Origin: Acidimicrobiaceae bacterium
GTDB taxonomy: Bacteria > Actinomycetota > Acidimicrobiia > Acidimicrobiales > RAAP-2
Assembly (NCBI GenBank): GCA_003158855.1
Contig: PMLJ01000043.1
Span: 1-64,000, forward strand
Length of the DNA stretch: 64,000 nucleotides
Direction of reading: 5' to 3'
The number at the start of each line of letters is the position of its first letter. The stretch's first letter is position 1. The notes under the pieces are model-generated. The model ran no database searches, was not told where the DNA came from, and saw nothing but the letters and a program-made list of their open reading frames with translations. The translations under genes and the position numbers were made by a program. Below, one piece after another: positions 7,848 to 13,353 of this stretch.

Positions 7848-9293
7848 TTAGTCTGCTGCAACCAACTCTGCCTTCGCTCCTGCCAAATGGGCAATGACAT
7901 CCAAGGCGCTGTAGTCGGCCCTTTCGACCAGGAGGGTGCGAATCTCGTTGATGCAGTCGCCGCTCGTCACGATCGGTGGCTCCTTGACACCATCCTCGCG
8001 AAGTTGTCCCAGCCCGCACGTCGCCATCAGCCCATTGCAGAGGCAATCTCGTCCGATGGTCTCTTCTATCTCGCCACCTTTCCTGAGATACATCTCCACA
8101 GGCTCTCCGGGACAGCGATATCCCACTGCCCCGTTTGACTTGACGAATGGTTCCCTGAGGTAGCCCAGATCGCAAATGCGTTCCCTAGCCTCTTGGACCG
8201 AGGTCTCCGACATCGTTCCTTCAATTGATGCGACCTTGAACGGGTATCCCGTGGACGAAGCCCGGACTGAGGTCGAGACCTTCACCGAATCATCGACGAT
8301 GGAGGCGAGGACACGTTGACGCAGAGAAGGTTCCATTCCCGACTCTCGACAGTACGCAAAGAGCGTGCCGACCTGGACTCCGGCCGCCCCGACATCGAAC
8401 GCGTCCTGGACATCTTGGGCCGACGTGATTCCTCCGCCGATCCAGAACGGCGCCCCCAGGCCCCCTAGGGCATCGAAATCGACGCGATCGCGCTCCCCGT
8501 ATTCCGGGTTGCCGTCGACGTCCAGTGTGAACTTGCCCCTCGGGGGCGCATTGTGCCCTCCGGCGTTGGGGCGCTCGACAACGAAGCCATCAACGGGACC
8601 GTTGCTGCGCTTCGCGAGCGCCGTTGCCAGCACGTGGGATGAAACAATGCCGAGGAACTTTGGCCGTCGAAGGCTGTTCGAGGGGAGGTAGGGCGACGGG
8701 TCGAATTCGAGCATCGGGATATGGCTCGGTTCGCCGCCCCCAGAGATGTCGAGCGGAACGCTGATCCGCTGTCCGAGAGCGAGCTGCTCGAGCAGTCCGG
8801 GAATATGGGTGGGAACCCCCGCACCCATGAGGACGTAGTCCACCCCTGCGAGGATCGCTCCGAACAGCGTCGGCACAGTCGGGATCTGCACCTTGGTCAG
8901 CAGGTTGATCCCAACGACGCCGTCGTGTCCCTGCTTCGCCATCGAGACTTCGACGAAGGCGGCGAGAACCAGCAGGTCGATCGATCGCTGCACATGGCGA
9001 TGCGTCATCATCTGGATTGTCTGATACGGTTCGGATTCTTCTCGTCGCGAGGAGGCGAATCGTTCAACGACCTCGCTGACGACAGTCGGCAAAGGGAACC
9101 GGTCCAGGGCTGCCCGCAAAGACTCGTCCACCCCTTGGTCTTGAAGCCGTCGGATGAAGACGTTATCGATGGCGGTACCCGATACCACGCCGAGTTGACC
9201 CGCGCTCGAAACAGCCCGCGCCAGCGGCCAGCCAGAGATTGCGATTCCCATCCCGCCTTGAATCAGCCACGGAGTGCCGACTTCTCTATTCAT
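7848..9293 (-). CDS. FMN oxidoreductase, nitronate monooxygenase / PfaD-like
   Basis: A 481-residue TIM-barrel flavoprotein of the 2-nitropropane dioxygenase/FabK superfamily. Visible family marks are the N-terminal IQGGMGIAISG, the central GVDYVLMGAGVP, the signature VERPNAGGHNAPP, and the FMN phosphate-binding run APFWIGGGITSAQDV followed by GAAGVQVGTLFAYC. A Cys-containing C-terminal region (RDCLCNGLMATCGLGQ) is typical of the longer, PfaD-related branch. It is soluble and stands alone; no polyketide or fatty-acid genes adjoin it, so the substrate is open (nitronate oxidation or an enoyl-reductase-type step). ATG 9293 was chosen because GAGGG lies just before it and homology begins with IQGG; the frame extends to 9341. 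Confidence 0.8.
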   Translation of the reverse strand: MNREVGTPWLIQGGMGIAISGWPLARAVSSAGQLGVVSGTAIDNVFIRRLQDQGVDESLRAALDRFPLPTVVSEVVERFASSRREESEPYQTIQMMTHRHVQRSIDLLVLAAFVEVSMAKQGHDGVVGINLLTKVQIPTVPTLFGAILAGVDYVLMGAGVPTHIPGLLEQLALGQRISVPLDISGGGEPSHIPMLEFDPSPYLPSNSLRRPKFLGIVSSHVLATALAKRSNGPVDGFVVERPNAGGHNAPPRGKFTLDVDGNPEYGERDRVDFDALGGLGAPFWIGGGITSAQDVQDAFDVGAAGVQVGTLFAYCRESGMEPSLRQRVLASIVDDSVKVSTSVRASSTGYPFKVASIEGTMSETSVQEARERICDLGYLREPFVKSNGAVGYRCPGEPVEMYLRKGGEIEETIGRDCLCNGLMATCGLGQLREDGVKEPPIVTSGDCINEIRTLLVERADYSALDVIAHLAGAKAELVAAD

Positions 9294-9588
9294 GCTGCCC
9301 TCAATTGCGCCGTTGACCCGCGAAGCGAAACTTGGGGACACGTCTTTGTTCGGCGCCCCCCCAGTCTAGGTTCGCACCGGTAAGCTCCCAGCGGTTCAAG
9401 GCCGGAGGAACCTTGTCGTTCGAGAGGCCCGATGGGCGCAACGTCTCGTGCGCCGTTTCACAAATGCTTCGCGTTTCTCGTGGAGTTTGGACTTTCTCGG
9501 CGCGCGGTCGACTGAAACTCGACTTGATCAGGAACTAGCTGCGGTTGGTTCTTCGGCGATGATCGGCCGCTCGGGTCATCGAGATTCC

Positions 9589-11232
9589 TCAGGGGTTGCG
9601 GACCGAGTTGACGCGATCAAGAACAGCGATAGTGCTCGAAAGTCCATCCAGATCGGTGTAGCAACCCTGCAAATGCCGCCCGCCCGTGCTCGACTCCACG
9701 AACGCGGAGCGGGCGTGAAGGAGCCGAGTGTTGTCAAAGATCAGACAGTCGCCCGGCTCGAGGCGAAACGTCAGCAAGAGGTCGGGTCGAGCAATGATTT
9801 CAGCGAAGCACCGGTAGGCGTCGTAGTACGCAGCCACGTTGTCAAAGTCGAGCTGCAACGCCTGCATCGATCGATTATTGAAGCGCACGCCGCGCACGCG
9901 GCCCCGCGGGTCCACTTCGATGATGGGGCGCTGCGCTCGCAGGTAGTTGTGCTCGTCGGTCCAGGCGAACGTCACTGGCGTGCCCGCCAGCACGTCGAAG
10001 TACTTCGGATACTCGTCGCGCAAGATAGCGGACGCCAGAAAACCATCGACGAGACCCGACTCGCCACCGTCGACGTTGCTTGACAGGCAGTGGAGCAGCT
10101 GCATTGTCGGCACGGGATCCCGGTACGGATTGTCCGTGTGCGGGGAAATCGCCAGTCCGGTAAAGGCAAGGTTGCTCGGGTTCGCTTCCACGCGCACCTC
10201 AAACAGTTCGCCGTAGTTCGTTGACCGCACGAACCCGAACGTTCGCACGACCTCCACCACCATTCCATCGACGGTCGGCGTGTCGTGGAGAATCGCGAAT
10301 CCGAAGCGCTCGATCCCGCGAAGGATTCGGAGACGCTCGTCGTCGTCGTTGCAGTACGTCGGCCAATCGGAACGCTGCGCGTCCGGGTCCAAGTCACCGG
10401 CGCGCCAGAGCTGCTTGTCCTGCTCGGTGCGGCCGTCGCCGCGCCCACCCGGAGACTGCGCCGCCAGCCAGTCGCGCGAGAACACCGAGCGGTGGTCGTC
10501 GGGAGAGAACCTCACGATGACCTGATCGCCGGTCAACTGGACGTCCGCTACGGAGAGCCCTTCGGGCAACTCGGTGATCTGGAAGAGCTTCTGGTCACTT
10601 CGTGGGTCGCGGCAACATTCGCACGGGCAGTTGTCGCGCAGCCAGAGTGCCGGGAACGCCAGGTCTCGTGGGGGCGGCGCCGACCCGGTGGCCAGTTCTC
10701 GCACGAGGACCTCGTAGTCGCGAAGATGGCCCGTCTCGAGCCCGAACGTCTTGGCGGTGTCGTCCCAGGAACGAAGCGCCAAGGCCGCCTCGAAGCCGGG
10801 GTGCGATTCGAAACGCGCGCGTTCCTCGTGGTTCAAGGAGCCGCCCTGGAGTATGAACGTCTCTTGCGACGCCGGCGAAAGCTCGTCGAAGTAGTCCGGG
10901 TCAATGGTGCAGCGCCATCGTTTGGCTGTGACGTGCAATGCGACCGGCTGGGCGACCGCGGGACCGAGGATCGGTGAAAGGACGCGGGCGCCGAGTGCCG
11001 CGTGGTCGTCATCGATGGGTGCGAATCCTTCGTCGCCCCCCACGTCGGTCACGAGCCAGCCAACGTCGTGAAAGAGCGCCGCGGCGATCAGCGCGTCGGT
11101 GGCGCCCTGGGCTCGGGCGAGGGCCGCGCACTGCAGGCCGTGCTCCAATCCCGTCACGAGCTCGCCGTAGTGCAAGTGCCCCCTCGCCTCGTAGAGGGCG
11201 AACAGCTCCTCGACGGTCGCGGGTGCCTTCAC
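9589..11232 (-). CDS. HD oxygenase fused to Fe/2OG dioxygenase (TmpB-TmpA-like phosphonate enzyme)
   Basis: A 547-residue two-enzyme fusion. Residues 1-185 match PhnZ/TmpB mixed-valent diiron oxygenases: YGE (22-24), H31, HD (55-56), H77, H100, D157 with PhnZ-like spacing, AKRW, and the diagnostic FILQGG and LALRSWDD. Residues 195-547 match gamma-butyrobetaine hydroxylase/TmpA: a zinc module (C202, C204, C207, H247), Fe ligands HTD (365-367) and H506, and R519 for 2-oxoglutarate. In the known pair, TmpA hydroxylates 2-trimethylaminoethylphosphonate and TmpB cleaves the product to glycine betaine and phosphate; the fusion would do both. All ligands are present in both halves. GTG start with GAGGGG upstream. 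No phosphonate transporter is adjacent, and another alkylphosphonate substrate is possible. Confidence 0.85.
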   Translation of the reverse strand: MKAPATVEELFALYEARGHLHYGELVTGLEHGLQCAALARAQGATDALIAAALFHDVGWLVTDVGGDEGFAPIDDDHAALGARVLSPILGPAVAQPVALHVTAKRWRCTIDPDYFDELSPASQETFILQGGSLNHEERARFESHPGFEAALALRSWDDTAKTFGLETGHLRDYEVLVRELATGSAPPPRDLAFPALWLRDNCPCECCRDPRSDQKLFQITELPEGLSVADVQLTGDQVIVRFSPDDHRSVFSRDWLAAQSPGGRGDGRTEQDKQLWRAGDLDPDAQRSDWPTYCNDDDERLRILRGIERFGFAILHDTPTVDGMVVEVVRTFGFVRSTNYGELFEVRVEANPSNLAFTGLAISPHTDNPYRDPVPTMQLLHCLSSNVDGGESGLVDGFLASAILRDEYPKYFDVLAGTPVTFAWTDEHNYLRAQRPIIEVDPRGRVRGVRFNNRSMQALQLDFDNVAAYYDAYRCFAEIIARPDLLLTFRLEPGDCLIFDNTRLLHARSAFVESSTGGRHLQGCYTDLDGLSSTIAVLDRVNSVRNP

Positions 11233-11355: not shown

Positions 11356-11399
11356 GAAGTTAAGGACCCGTGTCGGTTGCGACACGGGTCCTTAACTTC
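11356..11399 (-). terminator. 20-bp perfect hairpin after tRNA-Ser(UGA)
   Basis: Arms 11356-11375 and 11380-11399 are perfect inverted repeats around a GTTG loop. The hairpin lies 23 bases past the CCA end of the minus-strand tRNA gene and before the next minus-strand gene. There is no U-tract, so it resembles the U-less hairpins often found at actinobacterial gene ends. Confidence 0.7.
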
Positions 11400-11421: not shown

Positions 11422-11509
11422 TGGCGGAGGGAGTGGGATTTGAACCCACGGTGGGCAAGCCCACGCCGGTTTTCAAGACCGGTACATTCGTCCGCTCTGT
11501 CATCCCTCC
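11422..11509 (-). tRNA. tRNA-Ser (anticodon UGA)
   Basis: Reads GGAGGGA ... TCCCTCC plus G and an encoded CCA on the minus strand. The anticodon arm is CCGGT-CTTGAAA-ACCGG, giving UGA; a long variable arm (GTGGGCTTGCCCAC) marks a class II serine tRNA; the T arm GTGGG-TTCAAAT-CCCAC is canonical. Length is 88 with CCA. Confidence 0.96.
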
Positions 11510-11535: not shown

Positions 11536-13353
11536 TCAGCCCTTCTTGCGCGCGCGTGCGCGCGAGGGCTGGTCGAGGATGACCTTGCGGAGCCGAACCG
11601 ACTTGGGGGTGACCTCGACAGCTTCGTCGTCGGCGATGAACTCGAGGGCCTGCTCCAAGGACAGGATCGTCGCCGGCGTGATCCGCTCGGTGTGGTCGCT
11701 GCCCGAGGCGCGCATGTTCGTGAGCTTCTTTTCCTTCGTGGGGTTGACGTTCATCTCTTCGGAACGCGAGTTCTCGCCCACGATCATGCCTTCGTACACC
11801 TCGGTGCCCGGACCGACGAACAACGTCCCGCGGCTCTCGAGGTCGATGAGGGCGTTCGCCGTCGTGTCGCCACGGCGGTCCGAGACGAGCACGCCGTTCT
11901 GGCGCAGGCGGATGTCGCCGTACCAGGGGGCGTAGCCGTCGAAGTTGGTGTGCATCATGCCGCCGCCGCGCGTCTCGGTCATGAACTCGGTGCGGATTCC
12001 GACGAGTCCTCGGGCGGGAATGCGCCATTCGAGTCGAACCCAGCCGGTGCCGTGGTTGACCATGTCGATCATGCTGCCCTTGCGAGTCGCGAGCAGCGTC
12101 GTCACCGCGCCCACGAACTCCTCGTGGACGTCGATCGTGACGTGCTCGAGCGGCTCGTGCAGCTTGCCGTCGACCATCTTCGTGACGACCTGGGGCTTTC
12201 CGACGGTGAGCTCGAACCCTTCGCGGCGCATGGTCTCGATGAGGATCGCCAGTTGGAGCTCGCCGCGGCCCTGGACCTCCCAGGCGTCGGGACGCTCGGT
12301 CGGCAGGACGCGAAGCGACACGTTGCCGACGAGCTCCTTGTCGAGGCGGTCCTTCACCATTCGCGCGGTGAGGAGCTTTCCTTCGGTCCCGGCGAGGGGC
12401 GAGGTGTTGATGCCGATGGTCATTGACAAGCTCGGCTCGTCGACGTGCAGCGGCTCGAGGGCTATAGGGTTCTCGGGGTCGGCCAGGGTCTCGCCGATGA
12501 AGATGTCCTCGAAGCCGGCCACGGCGACGATGTCGCCGGGACCCGCGCTCTGGGCGGGGATGCGCTCGAGCGCTTCGGTGATGAAGAGTTCGGTGATCTT
12601 GGCGTGCTCGATGGTCCCGTCGATGCGGCACCACGCGACGCGCTGTCCGCGCTCGAGGGTTCCGTTGATGACGCGGCACAGGGCGAGTCGTCCGAGGTAG
12701 GGCGACGCGTCGAGGTTGCAGACGAGCGCCTGGAGGCCGTGTCCCTCTTCGTACTCGGGAGCAGGCACGAAGTCCGCGATGGTCTGGAAGAGGGGTGTGA
12801 GGTCACCGCCGGTGTCCTCGGGGTTCTTCGAAGCCCAGCCCTGACGCGCGCTCGCGTAGAGGATCGGGAAGGAGATCTGGTGCTCGTCGGCGTCGAGGTC
12901 GAGGAAGAGATTCTCCACCTCCTCGACGACTTCGGCGATCCTCGCATCGGGACGGTCGACCTTGTTGATGACGAGCACGACGGGCAGGCGCTTCTCGAGG
13001 GTCTTGCGCAGGACGAAACGGGTCTGGGGAAGGGGGCCCTCGGCGGCGTCGACGAGCAGGATCACGGCGTCGACCATGGAGAGGCCGCGCTCGACCTCCC
13101 CGCCAAAGTCGGCGTGACCAGGCGTGTCGATGATGTTGATCGTGAGGTCGTTCCACTTCACGGCGGTGTTCTTGGCGAGGATGGTGATGCCTTTTTCGCG
13201 CTCGAGGTCGCCCGAGTCCATGACCCGGTCGGTCATCTCCTCGTGGGCGGTGAATGAGCCGGTTTGACGCAGCATCTTGTCAACCAGGGTGGTTTTTCCG
13301 TGGTCAACGTGCGCGATGATAGCGATATTTCGAAGGGAAGTACGTAGTGTCAT
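11536..13353 (-). CDS. typA: GTPase TypA/BipA
   Basis: A 605-residue translational GTPase related to EF-G and LepA that binds ribosomes and affects 50S assembly and stress growth. Seen: P-loop AHVDHGKTT near residues 14-22, switch II DTPGHADFG, NKVDRPDAR for guanine recognition, then the beta-barrel (domain II), two EF-G-like domains and the TypA-specific C-terminus ending in an Arg-rich tail (RARARKKG). Length agrees with the family. ATG at 13353 is the first codon of the conserved MTLRTSLRNIAIIAHVDHG start; no Shine-Dalgarno is visible, and a -10-like TAGCGT lies nine bases upstream. The stop is followed directly by the tRNA-Ser(UGA) promoter region. Confidence 0.97.
   Translation of the reverse strand: MTLRTSLRNIAIIAHVDHGKTTLVDKMLRQTGSFTAHEEMTDRVMDSGDLEREKGITILAKNTAVKWNDLTINIIDTPGHADFGGEVERGLSMVDAVILLVDAAEGPLPQTRFVLRKTLEKRLPVVLVINKVDRPDARIAEVVEEVENLFLDLDADEHQISFPILYASARQGWASKNPEDTGGDLTPLFQTIADFVPAPEYEEGHGLQALVCNLDASPYLGRLALCRVINGTLERGQRVAWCRIDGTIEHAKITELFITEALERIPAQSAGPGDIVAVAGFEDIFIGETLADPENPIALEPLHVDEPSLSMTIGINTSPLAGTEGKLLTARMVKDRLDKELVGNVSLRVLPTERPDAWEVQGRGELQLAILIETMRREGFELTVGKPQVVTKMVDGKLHEPLEHVTIDVHEEFVGAVTTLLATRKGSMIDMVNHGTGWVRLEWRIPARGLVGIRTEFMTETRGGGMMHTNFDGYAPWYGDIRLRQNGVLVSDRRGDTTANALIDLESRGTLFVGPGTEVYEGMIVGENSRSEEMNVNPTKEKKLTNMRASGSDHTERITPATILSLEQALEFIADDEAVEVTPKSVRLRKVILDQPSRARARKKG

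Follow-up and report, generated by a model that had tools for sequence, protein, structure and literature searches.

A one-chain fusion of an HD-domain oxygenase and a TmpA-type hydroxylase in Acidimicrobiia: a candidate enzyme for two-step phosphonate cleavage

The window, as the whole analysed stretch of 64,000 nucleotides is called here, originates from a soil bacterium of the Acidimicrobiaceae and carries on its reverse strand a gene in which an HD-domain oxygenase and an iron- and 2-oxoglutarate-dependent hydroxylase are joined (Table 1). The gene starts with GTG, ends with TGA and comprises 547 codons without an internal stop. Between residues 170 and 214 the only start-like codon was GTG 177, located within the last HD helix. 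A preliminary description, made from the letters of the window, had placed both halves on one gene and had named a stop or an internal start between them as evidence to the contrary. The single open frame, which is also open in relatives of the same genus, bears out the one-gene assignment. The residues named at that time (Y22, E24, H31, H55, D56, H77, H100, D157, the HTD motif, H506 and R519) were all found at their places.

Table 1 Features of the fusion locus and of a related three-domain protein
Feature	Position	Strand	Remarks
HD oxygenase-linker-TmpA-type hydroxylase fusion gene	9589..11232	-	547 aa and stop
HD-domain (PhnZ/TmpB-like) oxygenase domain	10699..11217	-	residues 6-178; models, phmmer, fold match
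YGE loop	11161..11169	-	residues 22-24; one residue shorter than YxxE of PhnZ/TmpB
HDVGW motif	11056..11070	-	residues 55-59; W59 in place of the His of HDxGH
Linker	10660..10698	-	residues 179-191; variable, frame always kept; pLDDT <50 at 184-189
TmpA-type (GBBH/TauD family) Fe(II)/2OG hydroxylase domain	9613..10662	-	residues 191-540; Pfam, NCBIfam and PDB matches
NNRS	9868..9879	-	residues 452-455; N453 and R454 match phosphonate-binding N287 and R288 of TmpA
Gene of 497 aa, weak FabK-model match	7848..9341	-	next downstream; neighbour only
tRNA-Ser(TGA)	11422..11509	-	upstream of the fusion; neighbour only
typA/bipA	11536..13353	-	upstream; locus marker also present with the G029 fusion and with six of the seven solo W-type HDs
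Three-domain protein, 771 aa	L135:5372-7684	+	other loci: L059, L061, L064, L067, L072, L127

For the fusion protein, Pfam matches were obtained with GBBH-like_N and TauD only. The NCBIfam model for TmpA (NF049936) matched residues 191-540 with 429 bits, above its curated cut-off of 400; the fusions of two relatives also passed this model (G017, 419.5 bits; G451, 427 bits). Residues from about 6 to 178 were matched by the HD models TIGR03276 (Phn-HD, 180 bits, cut-off 214.6), PhnZ1 (158.6 bits) and TmpB (NF049941, 125.9 bits, cut-off 300), all below their cut-offs. Thus, the HMM searches proposed for both halves identified the hydroxylase, and none of the three HD models was passed. The other HD proteins scanned were below the HD cut-offs as well, e.g. 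the solo HD protein of G017 with 202.2 bits against 214.6 for TIGR03276. A phmmer search of the fusion against the PDB yielded TmpA (1.1e-85), TmpB (1.8e-24) and PhnZ (1.4e-20); human gamma-butyrobetaine hydroxylase (GBBH) and DfmD were also matched. In the AlphaFold2 model (74 rows, mean pLDDT 91.4, pTM 0.63) two well-predicted domains were obtained, and their relative placement is uncertain. With Foldseek each half of this model matched the expected fold: TmpA (6npb) with a TMt of 0.83, PhnZ (4n6w) and TmpB (6npa) with 0.86 each. The earlier suggestion that the hydroxylated intermediate is channelled between the halves finds no support in a model with this pTM and a pLDDT below 50 at residues 184-189, and was set aside.

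The fusion was found with an open frame in four of 99 genomes of the genus, the window's own included, with identities of 100, 92, 76 and 70%. In all four, the frame is kept across a linker of 13-14 residues that varies freely in sequence. Over six pairs the dN/dS ratio (Nei-Gojobori) ranged from 0.15 to 0.26 in the HD part and from 0.14 to 0.20 in the TmpA part, indicating purifying selection on both. An assembly chimera or a frameshift was ruled out by the identical frame in four genomes and by dN/dS ratios well below 1. The survey of its spread, proposed in the preliminary description, thus showed the fusion to recur within the genus, and other architectures were detected across the class.

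The alignment of the TmpA half showed the iron ligands H365, D367 (both of HTD) and H506 as well as R519, the 2-oxoglutarate-binding arginine. C202, C204, C207 and H247 form a Cys/His set of the GBBH type, which we take to be the equivalent of the zinc site of GBBH with a zinc-binding role. At three aromatic positions, presumably those of the cage residues by comparison with GBBH, the fusion has Tyr/Phe/Phe where TmpA has Tyr/Phe/Tyr. In PMC9296572, TmpA is described to bind the phosphonate through N187, N287 and R288, and human GBBH to use two Asn. The equivalents in the fusion are N354, N453 and R454; at the Arg position human GBBH has Ala. In the TmpA tree the fused proteins and a solo TmpA (G007) joined the TmpAs of an Embleya plasmid (L111) and of G807 at a node with support of 100/100, and human GBBH was outside the node uniting the TmpA rows. 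Of the rows compared, these two TmpAs are the nearest from beyond the genus, and both are located in unfused TmpA-TmpB pairs. It was considered whether the hydroxylase half could be a gamma-butyrobetaine hydroxylase with the HD half as an accidental partner. The Cys/His set fits this and TIGR02409 (GBBH) matched with 363.6 bits, but its cut-off of 414.75 was missed, R454 is present and the tree keeps human GBBH apart. Hence, this identity was rejected and we give it hardly any credence.

Among 47 TmpA-like rows compared, the equivalent of R288 was present in 28, and that of both N187 and R288 in 23. An HD of the PhnZ/TmpB-like family was fused or encoded in the adjacent gene at 21 of 22 loci with N187 and R288, and at none of 23 loci without both within the flank, mostly 1.5 kb; this signature was picked after viewing the rows, many of which are close kin. 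The exception was G007, with TmpA alone and a solo HD on another contig; by tblastn no HD remnant was detected at its solo TmpA. At three of the loci without both residues (L066, L107, L110) the GBBH-like gene has as its neighbour an HD gene that is only remotely related (HDLGD or HDIGD, 17-24 bits). Possibly, these are another pair of 2OG oxygenase and HD protein with a different substrate.

According to the alignment, the HD half keeps all six diiron ligand residues, H31, H55, D56, H77, H100 and D157, and in addition Lys104, Ser122, Thr125 and Gln129. Two changes had not been mentioned in the preliminary description, YGE instead of YxxE and HDVGW instead of HDxGH. In PhnZ and TmpB the YxxE loop moves upon substrate binding, as described in PMC8177086. 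The solo HDs of the genus likewise have YxE rather than YxxE, except for YDD in L079. HDxGH, present in 47 of 60 HD rows, was not found in the HD half; HDxGW occurred in 11 rows, which are all 11 members of one clade. Among the remaining 49 rows there were, besides the 47 with His, one with Arg and one with Thr. The histidine of HDxGH (His62 in PhnZ) presumably contacts the substrate in PhnZ. TmpB handles the trimethylated substrate and yet keeps this histidine. Thus, W59 is not simply needed for a trimethylated substrate.

In the HD tree the TmpB clade comprised TmpB, two rows from Rhodobacterales plasmids and the proteins of G412, Embleya and G807. The HD half was outside this clade and among the genus' own HDs, where the four fused and seven solo HDs formed one clade inside the solo HDs of the genus (support 100/99, and 100/98 in a subset of 25 rows). 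Characterised PhnZ (4mlm) was a long branch joined to another long branch and was not grouped with the HDs of the genus; its placement is unsure. With the HD half alone phmmer gave 92.6 bits for TmpB versus 79.7 bits for PhnZ of HF130. The HDs of the genus are called PhnZ-like here because TIGR03276 was the best model where scanned and a phnY-like gene adjoins in G017, G298 and G006. The nearest kin of the HD half are the TIGR03276-type HD proteins of its own genus. The identification of the HD half as TmpB, proposed initially, was therefore rejected: 125.9 bits stand against the required 300, the protein is outside the TmpB clade and His is replaced by Trp beside the HD ligand pair. Taken together, the two trees indicate that the fused TmpA is kin to genes travelling with true TmpB, and that its present partner is a copy of a local HD.

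The seven solo W-type HDs (L117-L123) are from genomes of the same genus, some of them incomplete, in which no second match was obtained at 1e-30 and hence no TmpA was found. No TmpA remnant was detected at these seven genes by tblastn, and inspection of their listed neighbours by eye revealed no recognised phosphonate genes. The HD tree places them within the fused group; a single clade of the four fused rows was not rejected (p-AU 0.177). They may have lost the TmpA half, or the fusion may have arisen beside them or after they had branched. In genomes without TmpA match this HD type may have another job. These results bear on the explanation that the TmpA half works whereas the HD half, with W59 and the short loop, changed its function and either fails to cleave hydroxylated 2-trimethylaminoethylphosphonate or acts on another substrate, so that a separate solo HD performs the C-P cleavage in the cell. 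The restriction of W59 to one clade and the solo W-type HDs without phosphonate neighbours fit such a change, as does G007 with its separate TmpA and HD. Furthermore, the genome of the window (G000) retains a solo HD protein with HDVGH (C37:80519), 72% identical. On the other hand, the metal ligands and the four further residues are retained in the fused HD half, its purifying selection is like that of the TmpA half, and the fusion was kept in four genomes. We consider a changed HD half unlikely, although it deserves to be kept in mind.

The fusion gene of the window is outside any phosphonate cluster, between tRNA-Ser/typA and the gene with the weak FabK match. A 96% identical copy of the latter is located behind the fusion of G029 as well. 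Around the solo W-type HDs, six of the seven stretches analysed contained typA, the exception being that of G009. The stretch of G451 was also without typA; it contains, downstream of its fusion, counterparts of two genes of 158 and 306 aa that the window carries farther downstream (75 and 72% identity). Between 9300 and 11560 no sigma-70-like promoter was detected, and the terminator scan of this region gave one site, inside the fusion gene, versus 1.4 expected. Upstream of the fusion, the coding strand showed no GTTCACC-like Pho box over 248 bases when up to one mismatch was allowed. A perfect inverted repeat of 20 bp with a loop of four bases was observed between tRNA-Ser and the fusion gene (11356-11399). 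It is perhaps the terminator of the tRNA, though it is without T run and absent from the terminator scan.

A different setting was found in G017. There, the fusion immediately precedes a PhnY-like gene, a solo HD, transport genes of the 2-aminoethylphosphonate (AEP) ABC type and a PhnX-like gene; a TIGR03364 FAD gene was the sole scanned phosphonate-type gene of this cluster above its cut-off. In the genome of the window the solo HD adjoins AEP-type ABC transport, PhnX-like and TIGR03364-like FAD genes, which were below the curated cut-offs where scanned. A search for PhnY in 14 genomes gave matches in five. Full-length or nearly full-length genes were present beside the solo HD in G017, G298 and G006 (in the last a frame of 251 aa, L045), and in G000 and G029 no more than C-terminal pieces were detected beside the solo HD. 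No PhnY match was obtained for G451 or G007 in this search. The phnY-like remnant of the window's genome (L036:6329-6520, corresponding to G000:C37:80328-80519) covers the last 60 codons or so, including a stop; the piece in G029 is similar. Apart from the fusion, these searches detected no phosphonate-type hydroxylase in the window's genome, a metagenome-assembled genome with 96.5% completeness. By such neighbours an identical two-step cleavage with AEP or an N-methyl derivative as main substrate, rather than 2-trimethylaminoethylphosphonate (TMAEP), is suggested: the HD half is kin to solo HDs beside phnY-like genes, the fusion of G017 adjoins AEP-type transport and FAD genes, and with phnY remnants only in G000 and G029 the fusion could have replaced phnY. 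However, the TmpA half passes the model of the TMAEP dioxygenase and keeps the aromatic residues Tyr/Phe/Phe, and in PMC10574752 TmpA is termed highly substrate-specific. AEP or an N-methyl derivative as main substrate seems rather improbable to us.

A hydroxylase and an HD oxygenase on one chain are indicated by the models, the fold matches, the metal ligands, the phosphonate-binding residues of the TmpA half and the setting in G017. The two-step TmpA/TmpB reading of the preliminary description holds in this respect, and fails for the HD half as TmpB. On balance, we favour a TmpA-type enzyme in which the role of TmpB was taken by a duplicated and altered local HD, giving sequential two-step C-P cleavage on one chain. 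One polypeptide would carry two separate oxygenase active sites acting one after the other. The C-terminal TmpA-type domain would hydroxylate C1 of a quaternary or N-methylated aminoethylphosphonate, with TMAEP as the likeliest substrate, and the N-terminal HD diiron domain would then cleave the C-P bond oxidatively to phosphate and a carboxylate, glycine betaine in the case of TMAEP. Presumably, this would serve phosphorus acquisition. The HD part would go back to a duplicate of a TIGR03276-type HD gene native to the genus, altered from His to Trp beside the metal site, and not from a gene of the TmpB clade. A flexible tether, providing 1:1 co-expression and a high local concentration, is probable rather than a tunnel. 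Counted against this two-step cleavage are the missed HD cut-offs, W59, the YGE loop, the position of the window gene outside a phosphonate cluster, the solo W-type HDs and the placement of PhnZ.

Further fusions were identified in the class. Forty of 395 genomes gave a match with the TmpA model at 1e-40, and five passed its cut-off. HD and TmpA were in one frame at nine of 38 loci examined, i.e. in the window, in G412 and in seven three-domain proteins; for the class nine is a lower bound, since the 38 loci cover part of the TmpA matches. G412 is the one genome with the reverse order TmpA-HD (L095:7040-8785, forward strand, 581 aa). Its HD half was matched best by the TmpB model (235 bits, cut-off 300) and grouped with true TmpB in the tree. 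The order phosphodiesterase-HD-TmpA was found in G434, G134, G438, G255, G426, G320 and G067, where a contig end truncates the protein. The additional N-terminal module has about 230-330 residues in open frame. In the four proteins scanned it was assigned to Pfam Phosphodiest, with NPP-type phosphodiesterases as best PDB matches. DxxGH and TTDHGG, which we take to be the NPP metal motifs, were present in all six modules checked. For the three of these proteins scanned with NCBIfam the TmpA parts were below the cut-off (270-311 bits) and the HD parts below all HD cut-offs. Thus, the substrate of the three-domain proteins is less certain; perhaps they represent the whole route from phosphonate ester to phosphate on one chain. 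In the HD tree as well as in the TmpA tree the three architectures were placed in three different clades (G067 is not in the trees), which points to separate fusions. None of 74 matching plasmid records covered 80% of the three-domain form in one place. In a phylum sample 10 of 396 genomes had a match at 1e-70, and no fusion was present at six new loci. Tentatively, one-chain phosphonate oxygenases may have arisen in Acidimicrobiia on three or more separate occasions: as HD-TmpA, with a neofunctionalised W59 HD standing in for TmpB, as TmpA-TmpB in the opposite order, and with an NPP phosphodiesterase for ester release followed by TmpA-like hydroxylation and HD cleavage. We regard this as plausible, at somewhat less than even chances.

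What surprises more is that a local HD with W59 has been swapped in, and that fusions recur in the class with their domains in different orders. If the proposed function is true, one bacterial enzyme would take a quaternary phosphonate all the way to phosphate, and it would follow that a local HD oxygenase domain can be recruited in place of TmpB. W59 is a natural Trp-for-His variant for probing the role of the HDxGH histidine in mixed-valent diiron oxygenases. The recurrence of such fusions within a class suggests that selection favoured proximity of the hydroxylated intermediate to the enzyme which cleaves it. The version with phosphodiesterase hints at phosphonate esters, such as lipid head groups or nucleotide conjugates, as a real substrate in the environment.

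In the preliminary description two such reactions on one chain were regarded as unusual. A precedent is given in PMC10574752 with PhoF of Fonsecaea multimorphosa, a fungal PhnY-PhnZ fusion described as the fourth version of the oxidative pathway. PhoF resembles the fusion of the window in that a single polypeptide combines a 2OG hydroxylase with an HD oxygenase for phosphonates, but it is fungal, of PhnY type and active towards AEP and aminopropylphosphonate (PMC10574752), whereas the hydroxylase described here is of the TmpA/GBBH type. The TmpA-type one-chain version in bacteria appears to be new, as do the other fusions in the class. No TmpA-HD fusion was found in titles or abstract openings on TmpA/TmpB, PhnZ, PhoF and phosphonates of Acidimicrobiia; an earlier mention is possible.

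TmpA and TmpB of Leisingera caerulea (6npb and 6npa) belong to the same two enzyme families and share with the fusion the metal-ligand residues and the phosphonate-binding residues of TmpA. They are encoded by two genes according to PMC10574752, in contrast to one gene here. Furthermore, TmpB of Leisingera has YLGE and HDIGH, the fused HD YGE and HDVGW, and the zinc Cys/His set of the GBBH type is present in the fusion but not in TmpA of Leisingera. The likeness to PhnY/PhnZ is restricted to the HD half, which is nearest to TIGR03276-type HDs of the genus that adjoin a PhnY-like gene in three genomes; the hydroxylase belongs to the TauD/GBBH family and is not PhnY-like, and the HD half has Trp instead of His. 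Of the rows compared, actinobacterial TmpA-TmpB pairs (L111 on the Embleya plasmid; L114 in G807) contain the TmpA that comes nearest from beyond the genus. These pairs are unfused, with TmpA first and an HD of the TmpB clade carrying YLGE and HDIGH.
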